Origin: Woeseiaceae bacterium
Lineage (GTDB): Bacteria > Pseudomonadota > Gammaproteobacteria > Steroidobacterales > Woeseiaceae
Reading direction: 5' to 3'
Assembly: GCA_011772865.1 (NCBI GenBank)
Contig: WVYQ01000023.1
Coordinates: 89,530 to 133,802, forward strand
DNA: 44,273 bases
Shown: positions 11,616 to 38,428 of the stretch, in pieces
How the letters are laid out: each line of letters begins with the position of its first letter
Numbering within the stretch: position 1 is the first letter of the stretch
The notes under the pieces: generated by a model
What the model was told of the DNA's origin: nothing
Seen by the model: only the letters and a program-made list of their open reading frames with translations
Databases searched by the model: none
Program-made: the position numbers and the translations under genes

Positions 11616-12821
11616 TCAGTCGCCCACCCGTGCTTCCAGCGCCTCGATTCGCCGCTGCTGCTCCTGGATGACGCGCGTCAAAACCGCAACGATGTCCATC
11701 GTGCTCAGGCCCTGCCGGCCGCTCATCGCTACGAGCTCCGGGACGTCTTCTGCGATGAAGCCGTTGTAGGTTTCACCATTTTCCGACTTGTAATTGAAGC
11801 GGACAGGCTCGAGTTCCGCGAGCGCCGCCAGCGCCTCGTCAAGCATCAGCTCGCTGATGTTCTCCTTGTCACGGCGTGTCGAGTTGTTTGTCCAGACACC
11901 GCCTGCCGTGACATGGGCGCCGCTCGCCATCTCGAGGGGATAGGACGGCCTTGATTCGCCAATACCCACATTGCCATCGCGATCGATCGTAACCCGGTCT
12001 ATCGAGCCGGCGCCGATCGTCAGCGTGCTCGCAGCATTGTGCATGATGTAGCCGGTCTCGCCCGAGGCTTGAGTGATCATCAATCCCGCCACGTTGCTGG
12101 CCTGTTCGTTGATCTGGATGTTGCCGTTAACCTCGAGCCGCTGCGATGGCTTGGTCGTGCCGATACCGATCTGGTTACCGTTATCGTAGATCTGTGACGA
12201 TTCACCCACCGTCGCCTCCTTGAAACGAACGAGGTAACCTGGATCGCCGTCGATGGCACCCTCACCGGCCGGTCCCGGCGGTCCTGGCGGTCCGGGTGGT
12301 CCCGGTGGTCCCGGTGGTCCTGCTTCGCCGATCACTGTAACCGCCTCAACCGGCTCGACGACGGCCTCTTCGGCGACCTCTTCGGCGACCTCTTCAACGA
12401 CCGCTTCTGCCACTTCTTCGACGGCTTCTTCCACGGCGTCTTCGACTGTCTCCTCCACCATTTCTTCGACAGATTCCTCAACCGTTTCCTCGACGACCTG
12501 TTCGACGGCCTGTTCGGCCACTTCCTCGTCAGCCGTTTCCCCGACGACCTCCCCGGACGGTTCGTCGCGAATGACCATCGACCAATCGGCACTGACGAAC
12601 CCGGTCGTGCCCTCTCCGTCGAGCTCGACCTCATGCCAGCCCGGCACCGAGGCAACGTGCTTGAGCGGTATGCCCCTTTGCAGGCGTCCGACAATCTCGG
12701 TGCCCGCCTCCGGCGCCTGTCGGACATTGACGAAGCTTTCGACCTCGTCGACCGGCACGACGACATCGGCAGCACAAACGAACGGTAACGCCAGAACCAG
12801 CAACCCAAGCGTGGTTTTCAT
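11616..12821 (-). CDS. Exported fibre-like protein: SH3b - VEEx repeats - collagen-like - S74 chaperone domain
   Basis: 401 residues. Signal peptide (cleavage near FVCAADV), then a bacterial SH3 domain at about 22-85 (VNVRQAPEAGTEIVGRLQRG, GFVSADW). Residues about 98-161 form a Val/Glu-rich VEEx repeat, followed by a collagen-like tract at 168-186. A beta-structured part then contains tail-fibre-like segments (IGIGTTKPSQRLEVNGNI, VGIGESRPSYPLEMASG). It ends in a Peptidase_S74 intramolecular chaperone domain (STRRDKENISEL; GFIAEDVPELV) with a terminal coiled coil. S74 domains trimerise and self-cleave phage tail spikes and some surface adhesins, so a trimeric cell-surface fibre is the best guess. 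GGGAGAGAG precedes the ATG. Confidence 0.82.
   Translation of the reverse strand: MKTTLGLLVLALPFVCAADVVVPVDEVESFVNVRQAPEAGTEIVGRLQRGIPLKHVASVPGWHEVELDGEGTTGFVSADWSMVIRDEPSGEVVGETADEEVAEQAVEQVVEETVEESVEEMVEETVEDAVEEAVEEVAEAVVEEVAEEVAEEAVVEPVEAVTVIGEAGPPGPPGPPGPPGPPGPAGEGAIDGDPGYLVRFKEATVGESSQIYDNGNQIGIGTTKPSQRLEVNGNIQINEQASNVAGLMITQASGETGYIMHNAASTLTIGAGSIDRVTIDRDGNVGIGESRPSYPLEMASGAHVTAGGVWTNNSTRRDKENISELMLDEALAALAELEPVRFNYKSENGETYNGFIAEDVPELVAMSGRQGLSTMDIVAVLTRVIQEQQRRIEALEARVGD
12264..12320 (-). repeat. Collagen-like Gly-X-Y tract
   Basis: Nineteen codons encoding five Gly-Pro-Pro triplets, then Gly-Pro-Ala-Gly. The DNA shows near-perfect 9-base periodicity, so copy number is likely to vary between strains by slippage. 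Confidence 0.85.
12339..12530 (-). repeat. VEEx tetrapeptide repeat (residues 98-161)
   Basis: Repeated Val-Glu-Glu-X/Ala-Glu-Glu units (VEETVEESVEEMVEET and similar) encoded by degenerate 12-base repeats. Val every fourth residue with acidic flanks predicts a charged helical stalk. Confidence 0.8.
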
Positions 12822-12901
12822 GACTCTCTCCCGCGATGTTCTTGTGCGTACAATAGACCTTTACGCTGGCGCTAACCAGTGTCGCAATGAGGCAACAATC
12901 C

Positions 12902-13732
12902 ATGTCCGACCCGTGCATTATCACCGTGGCAATAACAGGTTCCGTTGCAAGGAAGAGCCACAATCCCGCGGTTCCCGAGTCAGTATCCGAACAGATCGAG
13001 TCGACACATGAAGCCTTCGAGGCAGGGGCATCGCTCGTGCACGTTCATTCGCGCCATGACGACGGTTCGCCGGGCACGATCCCCGAGAAGTTCGCCGAGT
13101 TCCAGGAAGGCGTCCGCAAACACTGCCCGGGAATCATCGTGCAGTTCTCGACCGGTGGCCGCTCCGGTGTGGGCTCCGAGCGCGGATCGATGTTGCACCT
13201 GCGTCCCGACATGGCCTCCCTGGCGACCGGTTCGTGCAACTTCCCCGTTTCGGTGTACGAGAACTCGAACGAACTCATTGAGGAACTCGCAAGCACGATG
13301 CTCGAGTATGACATCAAGCCCGAGATAGAGGTCTTCGATCTCGCAATGCTGTACCGGGCTGCCGACCTCGTCGCGCAAGGTCTTTTAAAGCAACCGTTAC
13401 ACGTGCAATTCGTGCTGGGTGTCAGGAACGCGCTGCCTGCACACCGCGATATCCTCGAGTTCGAACTCGAAAAACTGAAAGACCTGCTGCCCGACGCGAC
13501 ATGGGTTGCGGCCGGCATCGGCAAGGCGCAGATCGAGGTCAATCGCTGGTGCCTCGAACTCGGCGGACACTTGCGCACGGGACTCGAAGACAATATTCGA
13601 CTCGACGCGAACACGCTCGCACCATCGAACGCGGCCCTCGTTGCGAAGGCCGCCGAACTCTGCGCCGAGTACGACCGTCACCCGGCCACAACGAAAGAAG
13701 CCCGAGCTATCCTCGGGCTTCAGATGCACTAA
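12902..13732 (+). CDS. BKACE / 3-keto-5-aminohexanoate cleavage enzyme family protein (DUF849)
   Basis: 276-residue TIM-barrel enzyme of the beta-keto acid cleavage family. These Zn enzymes condense a beta-keto acid with acetyl-CoA to give acetoacetate and a new acyl-CoA. Zn ligands are visible as VHVHSRHDDG (His47, His49) and the Glu of RTGLEDNIRLD. VQFVLGVRNALP and WVAAGIGKAQ are also family segments. ATG at 12902 is used because AUGAGG lies about nine bases upstream; an in-frame ATG at 12887 lacks a ribosome site. Members act in lysine fermentation, carnitine (dehydrocarnitine) degradation and other keto-acid routes; substrate cannot be read here. A hairpin is embedded in its last codons. 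Confidence 0.88.
   Translation: MSDPCIITVAITGSVARKSHNPAVPESVSEQIESTHEAFEAGASLVHVHSRHDDGSPGTIPEKFAEFQEGVRKHCPGIIVQFSTGGRSGVGSERGSMLHLRPDMASLATGSCNFPVSVYENSNELIEELASTMLEYDIKPEIEVFDLAMLYRAADLVAQGLLKQPLHVQFVLGVRNALPAHRDILEFELEKLKDLLPDATWVAAGIGKAQIEVNRWCLELGGHLRTGLEDNIRLDANTLAPSNAALVAKAAELCAEYDRHPATTKEARAILGLQMH
13691..13721 (-). terminator. Terminator-like hairpin for the VOC gene, embedded in the BKACE 3' end
   Basis: GAAGCCCGAG (13697-13706) pairs perfectly with 13712-13721 around a five-base loop. Read on the minus strand it is followed by TTTCGTT, so it fits an intrinsic terminator for the gene at 13752-14408 even though it codes for protein on the plus strand. Confidence 0.65.
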
Positions 13733-27844: not shown

Positions 27845-28909
27845 ATGCCCCTGGTCGCACACAACCAGCTGCCGACGTTCGACGTATTGAGAAGAGACGG
27901 CCATGTCGTCCTGTCGCTCGACCGTGCGCAACACCAGGACATCCGCGAGCTTCACATCGGCCTCCTGAACATGATGCCGGATGCGGCGCTGCAGGCAACC
28001 GAGCGGCAGTTCATCCATCTTGTCGGCAGCAGCAACCCGATTGCGCAATTCTTCGTCTACCCGTTCTCGTTGCCCGGGCTGAATCGCGGCGAGGCGGCCA
28101 GGGCGCATATTGCGAAGCACTATTTCGCATTCGAGGATCTCGCTGAGAAAGGCCTCGACGCGTTGATCATCACGGGTGCGAACGTGATCGAACCACATCT
28201 CGTCGATGAGCCATTCTGGGAGCCGTTGATCGATGTCGTACGGTGGGCCGAGACGAACGTGGCATCGATCTTCTGTTCCTGCCTGGCGACGCATGCACTG
28301 GTCAAGCACTACTACGACATCGACCGTGTGCATCTTCCGCAAAAGCAATGGGGCGTCTATACGCACCGCAGCACGGCGCCGGACCACCCGATCCTGCGCG
28401 ACGTCAATACCCGTTTCGAGGCCCCGCACTCGCGCTACAACGACATCCCGCGTGAACGATTCGAGGCGGCGGGATGCAGGGTGCTGGCCGAAAGCGATAT
28501 CGGCGTGCACCTTGCCGTCAGCCCCGACGGTTTCCGGGTCGTTTACTTCCAGGGGCACCCCGAGTACGGCGCGATCAGCCTGCTCAAGGAGTTCAAGCGC
28601 GAGTACAACCGCTACGTCGCGGGGGAGCGGGAAAAACTACCGCGCATCCCGGACAATTTCCTGACTGCAGAAGGCGAGGAGATTGCCGAGGCGCTGATAT
28701 CCAAGCTGACGCGCGATGGCAAGGCGAATGCGCCGCAGTTTCCCGAGGAAACCCTGCTGCCCTACTGCGACAACACGTGGGGCGACACCGGCAAGGCCAT
28801 CGTCAACAACTGGCTCGGGCTTGTCTATCAGCTCACCAATCTCGACCGCAAGAAACAGTTTATGGAAGGCGTCGACCCCGACGACCCGTTACAATTAGGC
28901 AATTCGTAG
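27845..28909 (+). CDS. metA: Homoserine O-acyltransferase, MetA family (probably succinyltransferase)
   Basis: 354 residues. Acylates homoserine for methionine synthesis. The N-terminus (MPLVAHNQLPTFDVLRRDG) aligns with E. coli MetA, fixing the start. Nucleophile is Cys146 in SIFCSCLATHALV, with His238 and Glu240 in FQGHPEYG; PHSRYNDIP is also conserved. It belongs to the NMMPDAAL/TGANV subfamily, in which the usual MPKK lysines and the TGAPLG specificity loop differ from E. coli. I recall such proteins being assigned as succinyltransferases, but acyl donor cannot be settled here. No ribosome site is visible and a terminator lies 17 bases upstream. First gene of a six-gene operon. Confidence 0.88.
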   Translation: MPLVAHNQLPTFDVLRRDGHVVLSLDRAQHQDIRELHIGLLNMMPDAALQATERQFIHLVGSSNPIAQFFVYPFSLPGLNRGEAARAHIAKHYFAFEDLAEKGLDALIITGANVIEPHLVDEPFWEPLIDVVRWAETNVASIFCSCLATHALVKHYYDIDRVHLPQKQWGVYTHRSTAPDHPILRDVNTRFEAPHSRYNDIPRERFEAAGCRVLAESDIGVHLAVSPDGFRVVYFQGHPEYGAISLLKEFKREYNRYVAGEREKLPRIPDNFLTAEGEEIAEALISKLTRDGKANAPQFPEETLLPYCDNTWGDTGKAIVNNWLGLVYQLTNLDRKKQFMEGVDPDDPLQLGNS

Positions 28910-28938
28910 CACCCATACCTCCCCAACAAGGAAAAAAA

Positions 28939-30090
28939 ATGGGCTTCAGAACCAGGCAGATTCATGCCGGCGTAACGCCGGATCCGATTACGGGATCGAT
29001 CCTCACGCCGATCTACCAGTCGACCACCTACGTGCAACCGTCGGTCGACGAATACCTGAGCAAGGGTTTCACTTACTCGCGTTCGGGCAACCCGACCGTC
29101 AAGGCGCTCGAGACGAAACTCGCCGATCTCGAGGGCGGTGTCGACTGCGCGTGTTTCGGCACCGGGATGAGCGCCGTACTCGCGACGATGCTCGCGTTTC
29201 TCGAGGCGGGCAAACACGCCATCGTCTCCGACGTCGCGTATGGTGGAACCTACCGTCTCAGCACCAAGATCCTGAGCCGTTTCGGCATCGACTACACGTT
29301 CGCCGACACGTCGAATCCGGACGACGTCGCCGCATCGGTGCGCGATAACACGGCCCTGGTACTGACCGAGACGCCGGCCAACCCGACGATGAAGTGCTCG
29401 GATATCGCTGCGATTTCCCAGATTGCGCAGGACGCGGGCGCCGTCCATGCGGTCGACAACACGTTCCTGACACCGTATTTCCAGCGCCCGTTCGAACTCG
29501 GCGCAGACGTGTCGATTCACAGCACGACCAAGTACATGGACGGGCACAACGCGACAGTCGGCGGCGCCGTCATCAGCAAGACCGGGGAACATGGCGAAGC
29601 CGTGCGCTTCATACAGAACAGTACGGGCACGATAATGTCGCCGCAGGTTGCCTGGCTGACCTTGCAGGGCTGCAAGACCTTATCGGTCCGGATGGACGCG
29701 CAGTCGGCCAGCGCCATGGCGATCGCCGAGTTCCTCGAGGCACACCCGAAAGTCGCACAGGTGGCCTATCCCGGTCTCGAATCGTTTGCCCAACACGAGT
29801 TGTCGAAGCGCCAGGCCAGCGGCTTCGGGGCAATGCTCTGGTTCGAGGTCAAGGGCGGCCTCGCGGCGGGCAAGAAACTCATGGACAACATCGAACTCTG
29901 GAGCCTTGCCGAGAACCTCGGCTCCGTCGAGTCGCTGATCACCCATCCGGTCACGATGACGCATGCCGATGTCGAACCCGAAGAACGCGCGCGTGTCGGC
30001 ATCATCGACGGCCTCGTGCGGGCATCCGTCGGCCTCGAGGATACCGACGACCTGATCCAGGCATTGTCCGACGCGCTCGAGATGGTCTGA
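28939..30090 (+). CDS. metB: Cystathionine gamma-synthase/lyase-type PLP enzyme (MetB family)
   Basis: 383 residues of the Cys/Met-metabolism PLP family. Conserved parts: ILTPIYQSTTYVQPSVDEYL, YSRSGNPTVKALE, TETPANPTMKCSDI, VDNTFLTPYFQRP and SIHSTTKYMDGH, with the PLP Schiff-base lysine at 198. It would join acylhomoserine and cysteine to cystathionine, or act as a gamma-lyase (some relatives are methionine gamma-lyases); the two are not separable by eye. ATG at 28939 follows AAGGA. It starts 29 bases after metA. The paralogous sulfhydrylase follows four bases later. Confidence 0.85.
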   Translation: MGFRTRQIHAGVTPDPITGSILTPIYQSTTYVQPSVDEYLSKGFTYSRSGNPTVKALETKLADLEGGVDCACFGTGMSAVLATMLAFLEAGKHAIVSDVAYGGTYRLSTKILSRFGIDYTFADTSNPDDVAASVRDNTALVLTETPANPTMKCSDIAAISQIAQDAGAVHAVDNTFLTPYFQRPFELGADVSIHSTTKYMDGHNATVGGAVISKTGEHGEAVRFIQNSTGTIMSPQVAWLTLQGCKTLSVRMDAQSASAMAIAEFLEAHPKVAQVAYPGLESFAQHELSKRQASGFGAMLWFEVKGGLAAGKKLMDNIELWSLAENLGSVESLITHPVTMTHADVEPEERARVGIIDGLVRASVGLEDTDDLIQALSDALEMV

Positions 30091-30094
30091 TACC

Positions 30095-31393
30095 GTGTCG
30101 CGTTTCCTGAATTTCGACACGCTGAGCCTGCACGCCGGCCAGACCGTCGATCCCGAGTTCGGTGCGCGCGCCGCGCCCATCTACCAGACCACTTCGTACG
30201 TATTCCCCGACACCGATACGGCATCGTCGATATTCAATCTCGAGCGGGGCGGTCATGCCTACACGCGCATCACCAACCCGACCGTTGGTGTACTCGAACA
30301 GCGCATCGCGTCACTCGAGGGCGGTTCCGCGGCCGTCTGCATGTCGTCGGGAATGGCGGCGACGTTCTGTGCGATCACGGCAATACTCGGTCAGGGCGAT
30401 CACATCGTCGCATCCACGCAGATGTATGGCGGCAACATCAGCCTGATGAAGAACACGTTGCCACGATTCGGTATCACGACGTCGTTCTTCGATCCGACCG
30501 ACACAGGCGCATGCAGCGCGGCAATGCAGGAAAACACGAAACTGATCTACGGGGAACTGATCGGTAACCCGGGGCTCGACATCCTCGACCTCGAGGAAAT
30601 CGCAAAAATCGGAGCCGCGCACAACGTGCCATTCATGGTCGACGCAACGTTCAACACACCATACCTGTGTCGCTGTTTCGACTATGGCGCCAATATGACC
30701 GTGCACTCGGTAACCAAATGGATGGGCGGCCATGGTGTCGCGATTGGCGGGGCCGTCGTGGACGGCGGCAACTTCGACTGGGGGGCCAGTGACAAGTACC
30801 CGACGATTACCGAACCCTATGCCCCGTTTTCGGGCATCAACCTCTGGGAAGAATTCGGGCCAAGCGCGTTCGCAACTCGCATCCGCGCGGAAGCGATGCG
30901 TGACATCGGTCCGTCGATGAGCCCGATGAATGCCTTCCTGCTATTGCAGGGTATCGAAACCTTGAGCCTGCGCATGGACAAGCACATGGCGAACACGCGC
31001 GAGTTGCTCGACTACCTGTCGGCTCACGACCAGGTGTCCTGGGTAAACCACCCCTCCCTGCCCTCGCACTCCAGCCACGATCTCGCGAAGAAGTACCTGC
31101 CGAAAGGCGCCGGGTCGATCGTCAGCTTCGGCGTCAAGGGCGGGCGGGAGGCCGGCAAGGCTTTCATCGAAGCGTGTGAACTCGCATCGCACCTTGCCAA
31201 TGTCGGTGACGCGAAGACCCTGGTCATTCATCCGGCCACGACAACGCACTCGCGCATTGACGCCGAGGCGCTGAAGGCTGCCGGCATTACCGAGGATATG
31301 GTCAGGCTCTCGGTCGGCCTCGAGGATATTGCCGACATCAAGGCGGACTTCGACAACGGCTTGCGCGCCGCCAAACGTATTGCCAAGGACTGA
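30095..31393 (+). CDS. metY: O-acylhomoserine sulfhydrylase (MetY/MetZ family)
   Basis: 432 residues, the length typical of MetY rather than MetZ (about 400). Signatures: DTLSLHAGQTVDPEFGARAAPIY split at Gln, YTRITNPTVGVLEQRIA, SSGMAATFCAI, GNPGLDILDLEEIA, DATFNTPYLCRCFDYGANM, and VHSVTKWMGGHG with the PLP lysine at 208. It makes homocysteine from O-acylhomoserine and sulfide. MetY-type enzymes can also take methanethiol and give methionine directly, which matters given the downstream genes. GTG start, four bases after the previous gene. Preferred acyl group unknown. Confidence 0.87.
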   Translation: MSRFLNFDTLSLHAGQTVDPEFGARAAPIYQTTSYVFPDTDTASSIFNLERGGHAYTRITNPTVGVLEQRIASLEGGSAAVCMSSGMAATFCAITAILGQGDHIVASTQMYGGNISLMKNTLPRFGITTSFFDPTDTGACSAAMQENTKLIYGELIGNPGLDILDLEEIAKIGAAHNVPFMVDATFNTPYLCRCFDYGANMTVHSVTKWMGGHGVAIGGAVVDGGNFDWGASDKYPTITEPYAPFSGINLWEEFGPSAFATRIRAEAMRDIGPSMSPMNAFLLLQGIETLSLRMDKHMANTRELLDYLSAHDQVSWVNHPSLPSHSSHDLAKKYLPKGAGSIVSFGVKGGREAGKAFIEACELASHLANVGDAKTLVIHPATTTHSRIDAEALKAAGITEDMVRLSVGLEDIADIKADFDNGLRAAKRIAKD

Positions 31394-31396
31394 GTC

Positions 31397-32206
31397 GTGT
31401 ACTTCGACGTTGGCGGCAAGCGGGTATTCGCGACGACCGGGGGCAAGCCGTTCGACAACCGCAGGCCGTGTGTCATCTTTTTGCACGGTAGCGGTTTTGA
31501 TCACACGACGTGGAACCTGCAGTCGCGGTTTTTTGCGTTTCGCAATTACTCGGTGCTTGCTCTCGACCTGCCCGGCCATACGAACTCCGACGGGCCGCCG
31601 CTCGAGTCCATCGAGGCCATGGCGGACTGGCTCAACGACGTCGTCGCGACGCTGGATATCGAAAACGTCTCGCTCGTCGCCCATTCGCAGGGCTGCCTCG
31701 TCGCACTCGAGTATGCGTCGCGCTACCCGGACCGGCTGCGTTCTGTGACGCTCGTGACGAGCGGCCTGGCAACGCCCGTCAACGACACGCTCCTCAATGC
31801 GGCGCAAGACGATCCCGAGGCCGCGATCGCAATGATGACAGGCTGGGGATTTGGCGCTGCAGGCCACTACCACCAGGGACCGATACCGGGTAACTCGATG
31901 GTTGTCGGCGGCAGGAAGATCATGCGCGGCAACACGCCGGAGGCGCTCGCCGCCGACCTGCATGCCTGCAACAACTATGGCAATGGCAAAAACGCGGCGC
32001 CGGGGGTTGCGGGCCCGGTGCAGGTCATCGTGGCCGGCAAGGACCGGATGGCGCCCAAGCGCGCTACCGACGAGCTGATCGCCCATCTCAATAACCCCGA
32101 AGTCGCCGTGATACCCGAGAGCGGGCACATGGTCCCGCAGGAAGCGCCCAACAAGTGCCGCATCTTGCTAAGGAATTTCATATTCCGGCACAACCCCGCC
32201 GTGTAG
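31397..32206 (+). CDS. Cytoplasmic alpha/beta hydrolase
   Basis: 269 residues, no signal peptide. Complete triad: Ser97 in VAHSQGCLV, Asp216 in VAGKDRMAPK, His244 in PESGHMVPQEAP. Oxyanion loop FLHGSGFDHTTW and DLPGHTNSDG. Most like small haloperoxidase/esterase-type hydrolases; it lacks the length and motifs of MetX, so it is not a second homoserine acyltransferase. Sitting between metY and a beta-oxidation-type gene, it could be a thioesterase or lactonase acting on an intermediate; that is inference. GTG start three bases after metY's stop. Confidence 0.85.
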   Translation: MYFDVGGKRVFATTGGKPFDNRRPCVIFLHGSGFDHTTWNLQSRFFAFRNYSVLALDLPGHTNSDGPPLESIEAMADWLNDVVATLDIENVSLVAHSQGCLVALEYASRYPDRLRSVTLVTSGLATPVNDTLLNAAQDDPEAAIAMMTGWGFGAAGHYHQGPIPGNSMVVGGRKIMRGNTPEALAADLHACNNYGNGKNAAPGVAGPVQVIVAGKDRMAPKRATDELIAHLNNPEVAVIPESGHMVPQEAPNKCRILLRNFIFRHNPAV

Positions 32207-32215
32207 AGTAGACCG

Positions 32216-34534
32216 ATGTACGAGATCAAAACCGCCGCCGTCATCGGCGCAGGGACGATGGGACTCGGCATCGCCGGGCAATTGGCCAACGCCGGCATCG
32301 ACGTCGTGCTGCTGGACGTCCCCGTCGAGGGGCCCAACCGCAATGCGGTCACGGAAAGGGCTATCGAGCGCCTGCTCGACAGGAATCAGCCCGGCCTGTT
32401 GCACAAGGATTTGCTGCGCCACATCACGACCGGCAACATCGAAGACGACATGGAGAGGATCTCCACGGTGGACTGGATCGCCGAAGCCGTTGTCGAACGA
32501 CTCGACGTCAAGAAGGCGCTGTACCGGCAGATCGATGCCGTTCGCAAGACCGGGTCGATCGTGTCGTCGAATACATCGACGATCCCGATTTCGCTGCTCG
32601 TCGCAGACATGCCCGAATCGTTTCGCAAAGAGTTTGCGATCACGCATTTTTTTAATCCTGTGCGCTACATGCGTCTGCTCGAACTCGTGCAGGGAGAGGA
32701 CACGAGAACCGGCGTCGTCAGGTGTCTCGAAGTATTCTGCGACAAGAAGCTCGGCAAAGGCGTCGTCGTCTGTAACGACACGCCGGGTTTCCTGGGCAAC
32801 CGGGTGGGCGTTTATGCGATCCAGAAAGCCCTGCACACGGCCTTCGACATGGGCCTGGCACCCGAGCAGGCGGATGCCGTATTCGGGCGGCCGCTCGGTA
32901 TTCCCAAGACCGGCGTGTTCGGCCTCTATGACCTGATCGGCATCGACCTGATGTCGGACGTCGTGAAAAGTCTCGAGTCGATACTTCCGGAAAACGATGC
33001 GTTTCACGCCGTGGCCGCGCGGATACCGGTCATGGATCGGATGATCGACGCGGGCCTCGTCGGCAACAAGGGCGGCAAGGGTGGCTTCTACCGGACGGCA
33101 GGTGACGGCGTTGGTCGCGAGACGCTCGACGTCGACACATTCGAATACCGCGACTACGCCCCCTGCAAGCCCCGGGCAGCGGTCGACGCCGAACTCTCGG
33201 GAGACTTCACCGGACTTCTCGGTCTCGACGATGCGTTTGGCGCTTACGCGTGGGAAGTGCTGTCGCACACGCTGTGTTACGCAGCGTCGCTCGTACCGCA
33301 GGTCAACGAGTCGCTCGTCGCGATCGATGACGCGATGAAGCTCGGCTACAACTGGATCCGCGGGCCTTTCGAAATGATTGACATCATCGGCGTCGACCGC
33401 TTCATTGCCCGCCTGGAGAGCGAAGGACGAGACGTGCCGGCGTTCCTCAGGACGGCGGCCGGCGAGTCGTTCTACCGCGCCAAGAAAAAGAAATTGCGCT
33501 ACCTCGAATCCGATGGCGGGTTCAGCAAGCTCCGGCGCGCCAAGGGTGTGAAACGTTTTAGTGAAATACGCCGCACTCTCGAGCCCGTCGAGGAAAACGC
33601 CGCCGCGAGTTTCTATGAACTCAGGCACTTCGTCGGTCTGGTCGAGTTTCACAGCAAGGCCAACGCGCTCGGTCCGGACTCGATGCGGCTGCTCGAGGCT
33701 GCGGTCGATTACGCGACGGACAACCTGAGGGGCCTCGTTATCCACAACGACGCACAGCACTTTTCGTGCGGCGCGGATCTTGCGACGATCCTGGGTTTTG
33801 TCGAGGCAGGCGACATGGTCGGCCTCGACGCGTTTCTCGATCATTACCAGAAGACACTGCAGGCGATGAAGTACGCGCCGATTCCGGTCGTTGCCGCACC
33901 TTCGGGCCTGTCAATGGGCGGCGGATTCGAGGTCCTGCTGCACACGGACAAGGTCATCTACCACGCCAACTCGGTCACGGGCCTCGTGGAATCCCTGGTC
34001 GGCGTCGTGCCCGGCGGCGGTGGCGTCAAGGAAATGCTGTACCGCTGGTACGAGCACGAAGGCGACATTACGAAGGCTGCCTGGAAGGCCTTCATGAACA
34101 TTGGCTACGGCAAGACCGCGCGGTCGCCGCTCGAGGCCAGGGAGCTGGCCATGTTCCGCGACGGCGTGGACACCTACATAATGAATCGGGATCGGCTGTT
34201 GCGCGCGGCCACCAAGGCGATCGACAAGCTGGCGCCAGGCTACGAGGCCGCGAGGCGGCAACCCATCGCGATGCCGGGGCGCGACGCCTGGACTGAAATG
34301 CAGACGTGGCTCGAGAATGCCCATCAGGACGGCAAACTGATGCCCCACGACGTCACGACCGGTTCACAAATCGCCATGATCGTAACCGGCGGGGACATAG
34401 ACGCCGGAACCGAACTGTCCGAAAATGACCTACTCGATCTCGAACGCAAGGCGTTCGTGACGCTCGGGCAAACGGTAGAGACCCGGGACCGGATTCGCTT
34501 CATGCTCGAGCACGGCACACCACTTCGAAACTGA
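32216..34534 (+). CDS. 3-hydroxyacyl-CoA dehydrogenase / enoyl-CoA hydratase fusion (FadN-like)
   Basis: 772 residues. N-terminal NAD-binding domain with GAGTMGLGIAGQLANAG at 11-27, FFNPVRYMRLLELV and the C-terminal 3HCDH parts (LGIPKTGVFGLYDLIGIDLM). A crotonase domain occupies the second half (LVIHNDAQHFSCGADLATI; PSGLSMGGGFEVLLHTDKV; GVVPGGGGVKEML). The order dehydrogenase-then-crotonase is that of FadN, opposite to E. coli FadB/FadJ. It would hydrate an enoyl-CoA and oxidise the hydroxyacyl-CoA. The usual partner thiolase gene is missing here. The crotonase half is a candidate for the DmdD-like step on methylthioacryloyl-CoA, but only by context. Confidence 0.9.
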   Translation: MYEIKTAAVIGAGTMGLGIAGQLANAGIDVVLLDVPVEGPNRNAVTERAIERLLDRNQPGLLHKDLLRHITTGNIEDDMERISTVDWIAEAVVERLDVKKALYRQIDAVRKTGSIVSSNTSTIPISLLVADMPESFRKEFAITHFFNPVRYMRLLELVQGEDTRTGVVRCLEVFCDKKLGKGVVVCNDTPGFLGNRVGVYAIQKALHTAFDMGLAPEQADAVFGRPLGIPKTGVFGLYDLIGIDLMSDVVKSLESILPENDAFHAVAARIPVMDRMIDAGLVGNKGGKGGFYRTAGDGVGRETLDVDTFEYRDYAPCKPRAAVDAELSGDFTGLLGLDDAFGAYAWEVLSHTLCYAASLVPQVNESLVAIDDAMKLGYNWIRGPFEMIDIIGVDRFIARLESEGRDVPAFLRTAAGESFYRAKKKKLRYLESDGGFSKLRRAKGVKRFSEIRRTLEPVEENAAASFYELRHFVGLVEFHSKANALGPDSMRLLEAAVDYATDNLRGLVIHNDAQHFSCGADLATILGFVEAGDMVGLDAFLDHYQKTLQAMKYAPIPVVAAPSGLSMGGGFEVLLHTDKVIYHANSVTGLVESLVGVVPGGGGVKEMLYRWYEHEGDITKAAWKAFMNIGYGKTARSPLEARELAMFRDGVDTYIMNRDRLLRAATKAIDKLAPGYEAARRQPIAMPGRDAWTEMQTWLENAHQDGKLMPHDVTTGSQIAMIVTGGDIDAGTELSENDLLDLERKAFVTLGQTVETRDRIRFMLEHGTPLRN

Positions 34535-34540
34535 CACATT

Positions 34541-36316
34541 ATGATTTACAACGCACCCATTCAGGACATGCTCTTTCTCATCCGCGACTGGATCGGTATC
34601 GACCGCCTTAATGCCTTGCCCGGTTACGAGGAAGTCGACCTCGACTTGATCGAAGCCGTCCTCGAGGAGGCGGGAAAATTCGCCAGCACCGAGTTGCTGG
34701 CGATCAACCGCGAGGGCGACGAGCATGGCGCCACGTTTGACGACGGCAACGTCACGACACCCCCTGGCTTCAAAGAGGCCTATAAACAATTCATCGAGGC
34801 CGGCTGGACCAGCATCGACGCCAACCCTGACCACGGCGGCCAGGGTCTGCCGAAAACACTGCAAGGCCTGATCGACGAGATCCTCGGCGCAACCAATGTT
34901 GCATTCAAGCTGTATACCGAGCTGAGTCGCGGTGCTTACCACTGCCTGGCCCACTCCGCGTCCGAGGAGATTTGCGACAAGTACCTGCCGAATCTCGTCG
35001 AGGGTGTATGGTCCGGGACAATGTGCCTCACCGAGCCTCATTGCGGCACCGACCTCGGTCTTTTGAAGACAAAGGCCACTCCGGCGGGCGATGGCACGTA
35101 CAAGCTAAGTGGCGAGAAGATCTTCATAACGTCGGGTGACCATGACCTGACTGAAAACATCCTGCACCTCGTGATCGCGCGCGTGGATGGCGCGCCGGCC
35201 GGGACGCGGGGTATCAGCCTCTTCCTGGTGCCGAAGTTTCTCGTTAATGACGATGGCTCGCTTGGTGAGCGCAACACCGTGCAGACCGCGTCGATCGAGC
35301 ACAAGATGGGTATCAAGGCATCCGCGACCTGTTCGCTGGTATTCAATGATGCGACGGGCTACATGATCGGCGAAGAAAACCGCGGCCTCGCGGCTATGTT
35401 CAAGATGATGAACCTGGAACGCATTACGGTCGGCCTGCAGGGCCTGGGGTTGTCTGATATCGCGCTGCAGAATGCGCTCGACTACGCGCATGAGCGCCGG
35501 CAAAGCAAAGCACCGGCGCCGCGCCCCGAAGAAGGGGCTGCAGCGGATCCGATCGTCTATCAGCCCGAAATGAAGCGCCAGCTCCTGACCATACGTTCCC
35601 AGGTCGAGGGCGCACGCGCGCTCTCGGTGTTCGCCGGCCTCAATATCGACATCATGGAGAAATCTCCCGACGCCGAGACTGCCGCCGTTGCGGAGAGTAC
35701 GGTTGCCCTGTTGACGCCGATCATCAAGGCCTATTTCAGCGACCTCGGCATGAGCAGCACGCTGTCGGCACAGCAGATCTATGGCGGCCATGGCTATGTC
35801 CGCGAACACGGCATGGAGCAACTGGTCCGCGATTGCCGTATTGCCCCGATCTACGAAGGCACCAACGAAGTCCAGGCCCTCGATCTCGTGTCGCGCAAGA
35901 TCACCGGCCGCATGACGGAATTCGCAAACCAGTTTCTCGATGGCTGGCTGACAGTCCTCGACGAGTATGCGGATGGCAGCCACGGTGACATCGCCGGCGC
36001 AGCGCGCCTGGGGCTGAATCACCTCATCGAAGCGACGCAGTGGGTGCAGTCGAAAGCCGAGGCCGGAGACGATGCCGCGATGCGCGGCTGCGCAACGCAG
36101 TATCTGCGACTGTTCGCCCTTGCGTTCATCGGCTGCCTGTGGGCGCAGATCGTTGACTCGATCGCGGACAATGAAGGCGAGTTTTATGACGTCAAACGCA
36201 AGGTCGCGAGCTTCTATATGCAGCAGGTGCTGCCGGAGACCGCTTTCCTGCTCGACGTGATCGTGAACGGATCGGATGCGCTTGGCGATTTCGAGGTTGC
36301 CGACTTCGCCGTCTAG
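34541..36316 (+). CDS. Acyl-CoA dehydrogenase, long form with C-terminal extension (DmdC-like)
   Basis: 591 residues, about 200 longer than classical acyl-CoA dehydrogenases. The beginning (MIYNAPIQDMLFLI) and the C-terminal domain match the subfamily that includes 3-methylmercaptopropionyl-CoA dehydrogenase DmdC and other FadE-like enzymes. FAD/substrate segments: MCLTEPHCGTDLGLLKTKA, KIFITSGDHDLTENI, ERITVGLQGLGLSDIALQNA, QQIYGGHGYVREHGMEQLVR, and IYEGTNEVQ carrying the catalytic Glu. It introduces a double bond into an acyl-CoA. Last gene of the metA operon, six bases after the fusion gene. DmdC versus general acyl-CoA dehydrogenase cannot be resolved without a tree. Confidence 0.88.
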   Translation: MIYNAPIQDMLFLIRDWIGIDRLNALPGYEEVDLDLIEAVLEEAGKFASTELLAINREGDEHGATFDDGNVTTPPGFKEAYKQFIEAGWTSIDANPDHGGQGLPKTLQGLIDEILGATNVAFKLYTELSRGAYHCLAHSASEEICDKYLPNLVEGVWSGTMCLTEPHCGTDLGLLKTKATPAGDGTYKLSGEKIFITSGDHDLTENILHLVIARVDGAPAGTRGISLFLVPKFLVNDDGSLGERNTVQTASIEHKMGIKASATCSLVFNDATGYMIGEENRGLAAMFKMMNLERITVGLQGLGLSDIALQNALDYAHERRQSKAPAPRPEEGAAADPIVYQPEMKRQLLTIRSQVEGARALSVFAGLNIDIMEKSPDAETAAVAESTVALLTPIIKAYFSDLGMSSTLSAQQIYGGHGYVREHGMEQLVRDCRIAPIYEGTNEVQALDLVSRKITGRMTEFANQFLDGWLTVLDEYADGSHGDIAGAARLGLNHLIEATQWVQSKAEAGDDAAMRGCATQYLRLFALAFIGCLWAQIVDSIADNEGEFYDVKRKVASFYMQQVLPETAFLLDVIVNGSDALGDFEVADFAV

Positions 36317-37473
36317 GCTTTCATCTCGTCGGGAATCTTCACCTGGGGCCTGAACCAAGGCGCCTCGCATACGACGGCGCGCCGATCCCCGGCCGGGGAA
36401 TCGGCAACAAGTTCTGTTCCGATCGACGCCAGTGCTGCCGGCACGTTGGCCCAACCAATATTGCGATCGAGCCGTGGCGAGTGTGCGCAGCGCGTCACAT
36501 GACCGATTTTTTCGCCATCGACGGTGACGTCCCAGAACTCTTCATTGGGCACTTCGAGTGGCGGGCCGTCGATCTCGATGCCGACGAGCCGGCGGGATGG
36601 CCCCTCGTTCGCAATTTTCTGCAGCGCCGCCTTGCCAATAAAGTCGCCGGCCTGATCAAAGTCCACAAAGCGGTCCATACCAATCACATAGGGGCTGTCT
36701 TCGAGCGTGATATCCGATACATACGACAACAGGCCTCCCTCGATACTTCTTATCGTCGACGGGGCCGCCGGCCGAATGCCGTAGGATTGGCCGGCAGCAA
36801 TGACGCGCTCCCACAACTCATCGCCGTATCGGCTGTCCCGCAAATACAGCTCGTAGCCGAGCTCCCCGCTCCAACCGGTTCGGGAAACAACCAGTGGAAT
36901 TCCATCCAGATCGGTCTCTTGCAGCCAGTAGTACTTCATATGCACGGGCCAGTCACCGAACAGGTCGCGCGCCACGAGCGGCGACTTGGGTCCTTGCAAC
37001 TGCAAGGGCGATACGTCGGGCTCACGGACATGTACATCAAGACCGCTGTTGACGGCGATGCCCATGGCCCACCACAACACATCACCGTCACCTGGCGACA
37101 ACCAGAACAGGTTCTCCTCGATTCGCAGCAGGACCGCGTCGTTGACGATGCCGCCATCCTGGTTGGTCAGCGGCAGGTACTGGCATTGCCCGACCGCGCA
37201 CTTCGACATGTCGCGCGGCGTCAGGAACTGGACGAATTCGAATGCATCGGGTCCGGCGATCTCGACCTGGCGCTGGCACGCGACATCCCAGAGCGTGACG
37301 TCGTTGACGAGGCTCCAGTAGTCACGAACATTGTCGCCGTAGGACGCCGGCAGAAATGTGTGGTTATAGATCGTGAATGCTGTCGCACCATAGCGCAGCG
37401 TCGCATCGAAAAATGGCGATTTGCGGACACGCGGCCCGATCGACAGGAGAGGCGGGTTCTTCGTCTCAGTCAT
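36313..37473 (-). CDS. DmdA-like, GcvT/AMT-family tetrahydrofolate methyltransferase (candidate DMSP demethylase)
   Basis: 386 residues. Close in layout to DMSP demethylase DmdA, which moves a methyl from DMSP to tetrahydrofolate: AFTIYNHTFLP, LWDVACQRQVEI, FVQFLTPRDMSK, GQCQYLPLTNQDGGIVNDAV, LQLQGPKSPLVARDL, SRTGWSGELGYELYL, EGGLLSYVSDITLE and the final FIGKAAL. Several of these are specific to the DmdA branch rather than GcvT. Non-DMSP relatives exist, so substrate remains a hypothesis; catalytic residues were not checked against a structure. ATG at 37473 chosen at MTETKNPP; upstream residues are unlike the family. Stop shares CTAG with the DmdC-like gene. Confidence 0.82.
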   Translation of the reverse strand: MTETKNPPLLSIGPRVRKSPFFDATLRYGATAFTIYNHTFLPASYGDNVRDYWSLVNDVTLWDVACQRQVEIAGPDAFEFVQFLTPRDMSKCAVGQCQYLPLTNQDGGIVNDAVLLRIEENLFWLSPGDGDVLWWAMGIAVNSGLDVHVREPDVSPLQLQGPKSPLVARDLFGDWPVHMKYYWLQETDLDGIPLVVSRTGWSGELGYELYLRDSRYGDELWERVIAAGQSYGIRPAAPSTIRSIEGGLLSYVSDITLEDSPYVIGMDRFVDFDQAGDFIGKAALQKIANEGPSRRLVGIEIDGPPLEVPNEEFWDVTVDGEKIGHVTRCAHSPRLDRNIGWANVPAALASIGTELVADSPAGDRRAVVCEAPWFRPQVKIPDEMKA

Positions 37474-37573
37474 GCGCGCCGATAGTACGTGACCGGATTT
37501 GGTCCAGCAATCCACTGTCTCGCCAATTCGTCCTGTGCGAGAATCGCCCAGAATTCACGGAGGGTGACTGGTG

Positions 37574-38428
37574 ATGCGTGAGCTCAACGAAAGCGAACGA
37601 TCGGCACTGCTCGATGCAGTGCGCAAATCCTACATGGAGATCTTCCCGACGCCGACGATCGAATCGAAAATCGACATTCTCGAGCCGGGCTCGTACATCG
37701 CCGTCACCTGTTCGCCAAGCAAGGGCGTCGAAGAGACGCTCGACATGTCGGAACGCCTTGCCGACAGAGGTTTCAGGGTCATTCCGCACATCGCCGCGCG
37801 TATGGTGCGCGACAAGGCACATCTCAGGAAAATCATCGGCCGCATCAACAAGATGTCGATCGTGAGTATCTTCGTTCCTGGCGGCGATGCGGACAACCCT
37901 GTCGGCACGTATCACAAGGCATTCGACCTGCTGCGCGATCTCGCCGACATCGAACACCGATTTATAGAGATCGGTATCGGCGCTCATCCGGAGGGACATC
38001 CGGTCGCGAGCGATGAAGAACTGGTCGAACAACTCCTCGCCAAGCAAGAGTATGCGAACTACCTTGTCACCCAGATGTGTTTCGACGCGGAGCGTATCGA
38101 TGCCTGGTTGCGCGAGATCCGGAATCGTGGTGTACACCTAGATGCGTGGCTCGGTATGCCCGGGGCGGCAGACCGCAGCGCATTGATCAAGACTTCGTTG
38201 CGAATCGGCGTTGGCGATTCTGTGCGTTTCCTGAAACGGCAAGGCCAAAGGGCCGCTCACCTGATGGCTGCGCCGGAGTATGTGCCCGATGCGCTGCAAT
38301 ACGCCCTGGCACCTGTGATCGCAGACCCGACGCTGAAGGTCTCCGGGCAGCATGTATTTTGCTTCAACCTGATCGAGCGCGCCGAACGCTGGCGGCACGA
38401 CTTCATAATGCGACTCGAAGGGCTCTAG
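37574..38428 (+). CDS. Methylenetetrahydrofolate reductase-like protein (MetF family)
   Basis: About 284 residues, a TIM-barrel protein of the MTHFR family. Segments: DILEPGSYIAVTCSPSKGVEETLD, cut as needed, GFRVIPHIAARMVRDKAHL, SIFVPGGDADNPVGTYHKAFDLL, FIEIGIGAHPEGHP, YLVTQMCFDAERIDAWL and LGMPGAADRSALI. Typical MTHFR shows TALRGD where this has VPGGDADNP, so it is a divergent member. The enzyme interconverts 5-methyl- and 5,10-methylene-THF. Divergent from the DmdA-like gene across 100 bases, it fits the oxidation of the methyl-THF made by a demethylase. GGAGGG precedes; a GTG one codon earlier is possible. Confidence 0.83.
   Translation: MRELNESERSALLDAVRKSYMEIFPTPTIESKIDILEPGSYIAVTCSPSKGVEETLDMSERLADRGFRVIPHIAARMVRDKAHLRKIIGRINKMSIVSIFVPGGDADNPVGTYHKAFDLLRDLADIEHRFIEIGIGAHPEGHPVASDEELVEQLLAKQEYANYLVTQMCFDAERIDAWLREIRNRGVHLDAWLGMPGAADRSALIKTSLRIGVGDSVRFLKRQGQRAAHLMAAPEYVPDALQYALAPVIADPTLKVSGQHVFCFNLIERAERWRHDFIMRLEGL

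Follow-up and report, generated by a model that had tools for sequence, protein, structure and literature searches.

The closest described arrangements come from SAR11 bacteria, in which an alpha/beta hydrolase gene (mhpC), fadD, and an acyl-CoA dehydrogenase gene (mmgC) are listed with dmdA, and in which the DmdA-like SAR11_1265 adjoins metF and is, by an unproven proposal, responsible for removal of the second methyl group of dimethylsulfoniopropionate (DMSP) (PMC3160333). The accepted scheme for SAR11 has either MetY or MetC joining methanethiol to O-acetylhomoserine (PMC5069961). Here, we describe a locus (nt. 27,845–38,428) in a window of 44,273 nucleotides (the whole stretch of DNA analyzed) on contig C4 of a Woeseiaceae metagenome-assembled genome (MAG; 3.26 Mb, 84.6% complete), in which methionine synthesis genes stand next to a gene for a DmdA-family demethylase. 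Six genes, all transcribed in the forward direction, form one tight operon comprising metA, a metB-type gene, metY, and the genes for an alpha/beta hydrolase (ABH), a FadN-like protein, and an acyl-CoA dehydrogenase (ACAD), with intergenic gaps of 29, 4, 3, 9, and 6 bases in that order. The DmdA-like gene lies tail-to-tail with the operon on the reverse strand, with a 4-base overlap with the ACAD stop, and is followed by a divergent, forward-strand gene for a methylenetetrahydrofolate reductase (MTHFR)-like protein, with 97 bases between the two starts. An earlier note on this DNA, made from the sequence alone, had described the compact operon with exactly these coordinates, strands, and gaps. 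The same note proposed that the locus couples methylated-sulfur catabolism with the direct synthesis of methionine; given a gene linkage that the note could not see, we regard this as the best available reading, with DMSP or one of its close relatives as the compound broken down, and assign it a probability of about 0.5. As for a riboswitch, no Rfam match was present between 24 and 40 kb of the window.

The evidence that carries this reading is the linkage of the demethylase to methionine genes within the Woeseiaceae. The block is conserved in other members of the family, and the locus is therefore not a chance arrangement. Our sample comprised 101 genomes of the family taken as Woeseiaceae, with a DmdA-family match defined by E ≤ 1e-90; the family was so taken because the match in G496, a genome placed in the window's genus, shares its coordinates with L009. 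Such matches occurred in 37 of the 101 genomes, as did ABH matches, the latter reduced to 36 genomes once a match in G408 (32% identity) was dropped. ABH served as the marker for the metY-abh pair, which held in every Woeseiaceae locus read, a check that covered part of the 36 genomes. DmdA-family proteins were present in 31/36 metY-abh genomes versus 6/65 others (Fisher p = 6e-15), and at ≥47% identity both proteins were present in 24 genomes (29 with the DmdA-like protein, 36 with ABH; p = 6e-10), neither value being corrected for ancestry. In 22 of the 36 genomes, the two lie on one contig no more than 10 kb apart; the 47% line and the 10 kb limit were chosen after the hits were seen. Across the 20 ABH loci that were read (the window, L009, L010, L076–L085, L089–L092, L104, L105, and L108), fadN adjoins abh in 17, the ACAD gene comes next in 12, and the metB-type gene is missing from 5 (L080, L083, L084, L085, and L092), hence metY-abh forms the core, with fadN common and the ACAD and metB-type genes optional. 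A different arrangement is seen in G464, which belongs to the window's own genus, where a crotonase (NF006008), an acyl-CoA synthetase (NF006020, 919 bits), MetY (50% identical to that of the window), and a DmdA-like protein from a third clade are encoded in a row (L088).

Some of these loci carry further genes of note. At L083 (nt. 11,688–13,427; G400), the C-terminal part of MetH, cut by the contig edge, adjoins a DmdA-like gene, which is another link between demethylase and methionine genes. Relatives of zinc-type alcohol dehydrogenase recur near metY-abh in the Halieaceae and Woeseiaceae (L012:7020-8078, L080:10721-11710, L092:3022-4377, and L108:10622-11608; 63–65% identical to the L012 protein), with a short-chain dehydrogenase gene alongside in L012 and L080.

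The linkage also occurs outside the family, in places with DmdA itself. Two genomes, G205 and G016, share the phylum of the window and fall outside its class; our guess is that they are Alphaproteobacteria. In G205, the gene for a DmdA of 477 bits (cut-off 410) is divergent from metY-abh-fadN-acyl-CoA synthetase, with proteins 60% (metY), 41% (abh), and 48% (fadN) identical to those of the window and a synthetase well over its cut-off (NF006020, 831 versus 677). In G016, the gene for a DmdA of 600 bits lies tail-to-tail with a metY 49% identical to the window's. A dmdA-like gene lies ~4 kb from metY-abh in the Halieaceae locus L012, and metY was present at one of the eight loci of DmdA-like relatives outside the Woeseiaceae (L012–L019). 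The coupling of demethylation to methionine synthesis put forward in the earlier note thus gains from the Woeseiaceae linkage, from the Halieaceae locus, and from G205 and G016 with their above-cut-off DmdA proteins; its attribution to DmdA, DmdC, and DMSP specifically goes further than our results.

The DmdA-like protein (nt. 36,313–37,473, reverse strand) has the DmdA model NF009133 as its best family, at 350.4 bits, 60 short of the cut-off of 410, and reaches 159.7 bits versus a cut-off of 300 with GcvT models. Among solved structures, its best match is 3tfh (254 bits), the Pelagibacter DmdA (PMC7487153), followed by the GcvT 1yx2 (145 bits); proteins of the sarcosine/dimethylglycine type score lower (1pj5, 94 bits). 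Its sequence identity is 36% with 3tfh, 40% with L020, an above-cut-off DmdA, and 29% with GcvT, its nearest relatives being encoded in the Woeseiaceae MAG loci L009, L010, and L011 (83–86%). A 62-row tree placed it in a clade of 20 rows (support 100/99) comprising Woeseiaceae and Halieaceae proteins among others, apart from a 19-row DmdA clade (100/99) holding 3tfh, 17 of the 18 above-cut-off proteins, and one G422 protein; the 18th was left out as a near copy. L033, being almost the same as L032, is absent from our trees. Joining both clades was rejected (p-AU 0.0016, with groups named after the tree had been seen). An earlier clade test, in which the window protein alone was placed with the above-cut-off rows (p-AU 3e-27), was discarded because it split the protein from its near-identical relatives. 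Both GcvT rows branch off far from the protein and have DD at the site where it carries the DmdA-type mark ND, its other DmdA-type mark being YNHT. Judged by the cut-off, the tree, and the clade test, the protein is thus a DmdA-like one rather than a DmdA, and it is no GcvT either. The earlier note had also called it DmdA-like, and had named its grouping with glycine-cleavage or sarcosine relatives among the outcomes that would refute the proposed locus; in our tree, which had no sarcosine-type rows, it did not group with GcvT. As a candidate DmdA, the protein has DmdA as its best family and carries the YNH and ND marks, and it falls short at the cut-off and at membership of the DmdA clade.

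Given the missed cut-off and the separate clade, DMSP as the substrate is unproven. A Trp in the column of position 197 of 3tfh has been reported as key for DMSP under another numbering (PMC7487153; the offset is ours). We rejected it as proof of DMSP binding, given that most above-cut-off rows have Tyr in this column. The genome encodes a second DmdA (414 versus 410 bits), which is located ~48 kb onward on contig C4 and falls within the 19-row DmdA clade. A sodium/solute symporter-type protein is encoded ~1 kb beyond it (124 bits, below the cut-off of 184). The genome as a whole has 12 GCV_T matches, seven of them in frames of 564–1000 residues, which suggests a broad use of methylated amines.

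The first three genes of the operon concern methionine. The homoserine O-acyltransferase gene metA (nt. 27,845–28,909, forward) encodes a protein well over its NCBIfam cut-off (NF003776, 451 versus 358 bits). The product of the metB-type gene (nt. 28,939–30,090, forward, ATG at 28,939; PF01053) is a pyridoxal phosphate enzyme that scores under every cut-off among the best 25 of its 48 NCBIfam matches (top 435 versus 594) and, being below all of those cut-offs, may be either a cystathionine gamma-synthase or a gamma-lyase. MetY (nt. 30,095–31,393, forward), of the O-acetylhomoserine sulfhydrylase type, is barely over the NF006004 cut-off (636.7 versus 636 bits) and clears TIGR01326 (577.1 versus 495.1). 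The gene names chosen in the earlier note agree with the family matches, in a weaker degree for MetY (a narrow pass), the metB-type and DmdA-like proteins (below their cut-offs), and the MTHFR-like protein (a Pfam match only).

Neither MetH (PF02965) nor MetE (PF01717) had a match in the window's own genome or in nine sampled genomes of the genus g217. The absence of MetH is possibly due to one assembly gap, given that the MAG is 84.6% complete and that metF and metH are adjacent in many relatives; a homocysteine S-methyltransferase is present in the genome. We considered whether the loss of MetH proves that methanethiol must be the donor for MetY, and rejected this in view of MAG incompleteness and the other routes of homocysteine methylation. 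The g217 genomes (G401, G412, G417, G420, G423, G426, G429, G432, and G435, including loci L084 and L085) are small Woeseiaceae genomes of 1.1–2.0 Mb, and seven of the nine carry a metY-linked ABH. A betaine-homocysteine methyltransferase was found in both g217 genomes inspected, and this pattern, with neither MetH nor MetE, resembles SAR11 methionine synthesis. On contig C43 of the window's genome, a second, differently arranged cluster (L162) comprises a crotonase (NF006008), a partly masked acyl-CoA synthetase of type NF006020, a small and apparently CoA-binding protein, and a second MetY; the G464 cluster (L088), with crotonase, synthetase, and MetY, includes a DmdA-like gene as well.

The next gene encodes the ABH (nt. 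31,397–32,206, forward; PF12697 and PF00561). With a profile built from eight ABH sequences, we found the protein in 34/398 Pseudomonadota genomes and fetched 30 of these 34 loci; metY stands beside the ABH gene in all 29 loci other than the window's own (30/30 with it), within 0.5 kb and mostly only a few bases apart. Ser97, Asp216, and His244 are invariant across the eight sequences of alignment A1 and probably form the catalytic triad; the structure model has a mean pLDDT of 87. A comparative study of methionine regulons names, in the excerpt available, no such ABH partner (PMC4239095), and no description of a MetY paired with such a hydrolase was found among the open-access papers listed. 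We rejected the ABH as a DMSP-specific part, since it is a constant metY neighbor and just 4 of the 34 genomes that have it also have a DmdA over cut-off. With metY adjoining in every fetched locus and DmdA rare, the ABH instead looks like a general partner of MetY, to which we assign no reaction, and the pair hints that a textbook enzyme may have a partner not yet described.

The ACAD (nt. 34,541–36,316, forward), which has a PF12806 C-terminal domain, belongs to a broad group that includes the structures 8png, 8pns, and 6ijc (52%, 48%, and 47% identity over the aligned part, respectively). All three are annotated as acyl-CoA dehydrogenases in the structure table; we take 6ijc to be DmdC, and 8png and 8pns presumably come from P. 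aeruginosa. In a 14-row tree, 8pns and 6ijc fall together, and the 11 proteins from Woeseiaceae make up a separate clade that contains none of the three structures. DmdC is itself broad, one isozyme having a lower Km for C4–C6 acyl-CoAs than for methylmercaptopropionyl-CoA (PMC5395565). From this breadth and the tree, the label "DmdC-like" therefore speaks neither for nor against the pathway. The earlier note had applied this label to the ACAD, and we found it to have no diagnostic value; nor did we accept the ACAD as a proven DmdC, given its own clade and the grouping of 6ijc with 8pns.

The only crotonase in the operon is the half inside the FadN-like 3-hydroxyacyl-CoA dehydrogenase/crotonase fusion (nt. 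32,216–34,534, forward; PF02737, PF00725, and PF00378 over cut-off). As read from the sequence, this half retains GGGFE and GLVESLVGVVPGGGG, presumably the places of the two catalytic glutamates of crotonases. DmdD is missing from most marine DMSP demethylators (PMC5395565). AMP-binding CoA ligases had 12 matches in the genome, none within the window (C4:89530-133802), confirming the absence of DmdB from the window remarked on in the earlier note; a wider search, which the note had advised, located DmdB on contig C1 (L054:1072-2847; NF005426, 849.4 versus 822 bits).

The divergent MTHFR-like protein (nt. 37,571–38,428, forward) is over the gathering cut-off of PF02219 (39.8 versus 24 bits) and far from the canonical TIGR00676 (49.9 versus 293.7 bits); its presumed role is the oxidation of methyl-tetrahydrofolate (methyl-THF). 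It is the divergent neighbor of the DmdA-like gene in the window, L009, and L011. Same-strand MTHFR-like genes lie beside DmdA-like genes in the Halieaceae/gammaproteobacterial loci L013–L017 (41–44% identical), in L128 (36–38%), and in the more distant L116 (26–27%). Loci L010 and L104 are cut off before the gene could be seen, and L080 has a 29% identical relative ~5 kb from its dmdA-like gene. In L014, a LysR regulator and a crotonase gene precede the DmdA-like/MTHFR-like pair and two glutathione-dependent formaldehyde oxidation genes follow it.

Put together, these parts would make a pathway in which the DmdA-family enzyme passes one S-methyl group to tetrahydrofolate, with a CoA ligase from another part of the genome activating the methylthioalkanoate product. 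The ACAD would then dehydrogenate the methylthioalkanoyl thioester, and the crotonase domain of the FadN-like fusion would hydrate it and so release methanethiol. Methionine would form as MetY combines methanethiol with the acyl-homoserine that MetA supplies, and the MTHFR-like protein, in loci that have it, would convert methyl-THF back to methylene-THF. From gene content and position we infer all of the reactions, the substrate, and that MetY takes methanethiol in place of sulfide. A bolder version, which we hold only tentatively, is that the locus belongs to a recurrent unit, put together on more than one occasion, where DmdA-family demethylases of at least three clades are tied to MetY and methanethiol is captured as methionine before it escapes or is oxidized, with the ABH as an obligate partner and the window's clade acting on a new S-methyl substrate.

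Several observations weigh against the coupling of methylated-sulfur breakdown to methionine synthesis. Besides its shortfall in bits, the demethylase lies outside the DmdA clade, and the ACAD resembles other enzymes at least as closely as it does DmdC. No DmdA-family match was found at 1e-90 in 5 of the 36 Woeseiaceae metY-abh genomes, and no DmdA-like protein of the window type (≥47% identity) in 12; FadN, ACAD, and metB are not constant across the loci, and among the Woeseiaceae loci read the MTHFR-like gene stands beside the dmdA-like gene only in the window, L009, and L011. Where DmdA loci were fetched with ~6 kb on either side, metY was near 2 of the 6 above-cut-off loci (own locus excluded; 17 others found) and near none of the 14 other DmdA-like loci. 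In the wider sample, metY-abh is common where DmdA is lacking (no DmdA over cut-off in 30 of the 34 genomes with ABH), and the overlap of DmdA and ABH (4 genomes, from 17 and 34 of 398) is barely above chance (p = 0.048). In two Ruegeria species, direct capture accounted for only 33% and 50% of methionine (PMC7157515).

That metY-abh is so widespread in the absence of DmdA, and that L089, L090, and L091 have it with neither an ACAD gene nor a nearby dmdA-like gene, would suit an ordinary sulfide-based metA-metY-abh operon for homocysteine, with an incidental beta-oxidation pair. The DmdA-like protein would then demethylate a nitrogen compound and be a neighbor through shared folate/methionine regulation. 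N-demethylation may be common in this genome, given its 12 GCV_T matches, of which the seven long frames are sized like dimethylglycine/sarcosine dehydrogenase fusions (a family assignment inferred by us). In the Woeseiaceae, the DmdA family and metY-abh go together both at the genome level and within 10 kb, which argues against an ordinary operon, as does G205, where DmdA itself is linked to metY-abh-fadN-ligase, and we find this explanation doubtful. The separation of the window's clade from DmdA, in a genome with a DmdA-type second copy, raises instead the idea that the DmdA-like protein acts on another sulfur compound (methylmercaptopropionate, in a second demethylation, or another sulfonium), with the MTHFR-like protein oxidizing methyl-THF as speculated for SAR11_1265 and metF. 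The DmdA-like/MTHFR pairs of L013–L017, L128, and L116 fit this, as does the SAR11 precedent (PMC3160333). We came across no activity measurement on a protein of the window's clade, however, and demethylation of methylmercaptopropionate consumes the precursor of methanethiol, and is therefore a poor fit with the MetY linkage; overall, we think this unlikely.

The coupling of demethylation to direct methionine synthesis remains our preferred reading, and the locus suggests that a marine bacterium may build methionine directly from leftover methanethiol, the starting compound being unproven. Labelling in two Ruegeria species indicated that, contrary to an older view, only part of the methanethiol is caught directly (PMC7157515). 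A demethylase, acyl-CoA steps, and MetY in one locus would be a genetic marker for direct capture, and would allow single-locus mutants for testing it in a family not tied to DMSP genes by any paper listed. Among the open-access papers listed, no description of a dmdA-metY linkage was found, and Woeseiaceae were not named together with DMSP genes; the component parts are known, and it is their linkage and the MetY-ABH pair for which the search returned no description.

Set against known systems, the operon shares with the fadN-fadA-fadE beta-oxidation operon of Bacillus the pairing of a FadN-type fusion with an acyl-CoA dehydrogenase, but has no thiolase and is tied to methionine genes. Like the SAR92 cluster dmdA-acuH-dmdB-dmdC, it groups demethylation genes in a gammaproteobacterium; unlike that cluster, for which the excerpt available names no methionine genes, the window has no dmdB or free-standing acuH, and its demethylase falls outside the DmdA clade (PMC10746254). 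The proposed joining of methanethiol and an O-acylhomoserine to form methionine is that of Ruegeria, where capture was measured by labelling, whereas here it is inferred from gene linkage (PMC7157515). As in SAR11, and with a likeness to mhpC and SAR11_1265 by description only, a DmdA-family gene accompanies an alpha/beta hydrolase and an acyl-CoA dehydrogenase, and a DmdA-like gene lies beside a gene of the MTHFR/metF type; unlike SAR11, the window has both pairings in one locus, together with metA, a metB-type gene, and metY.

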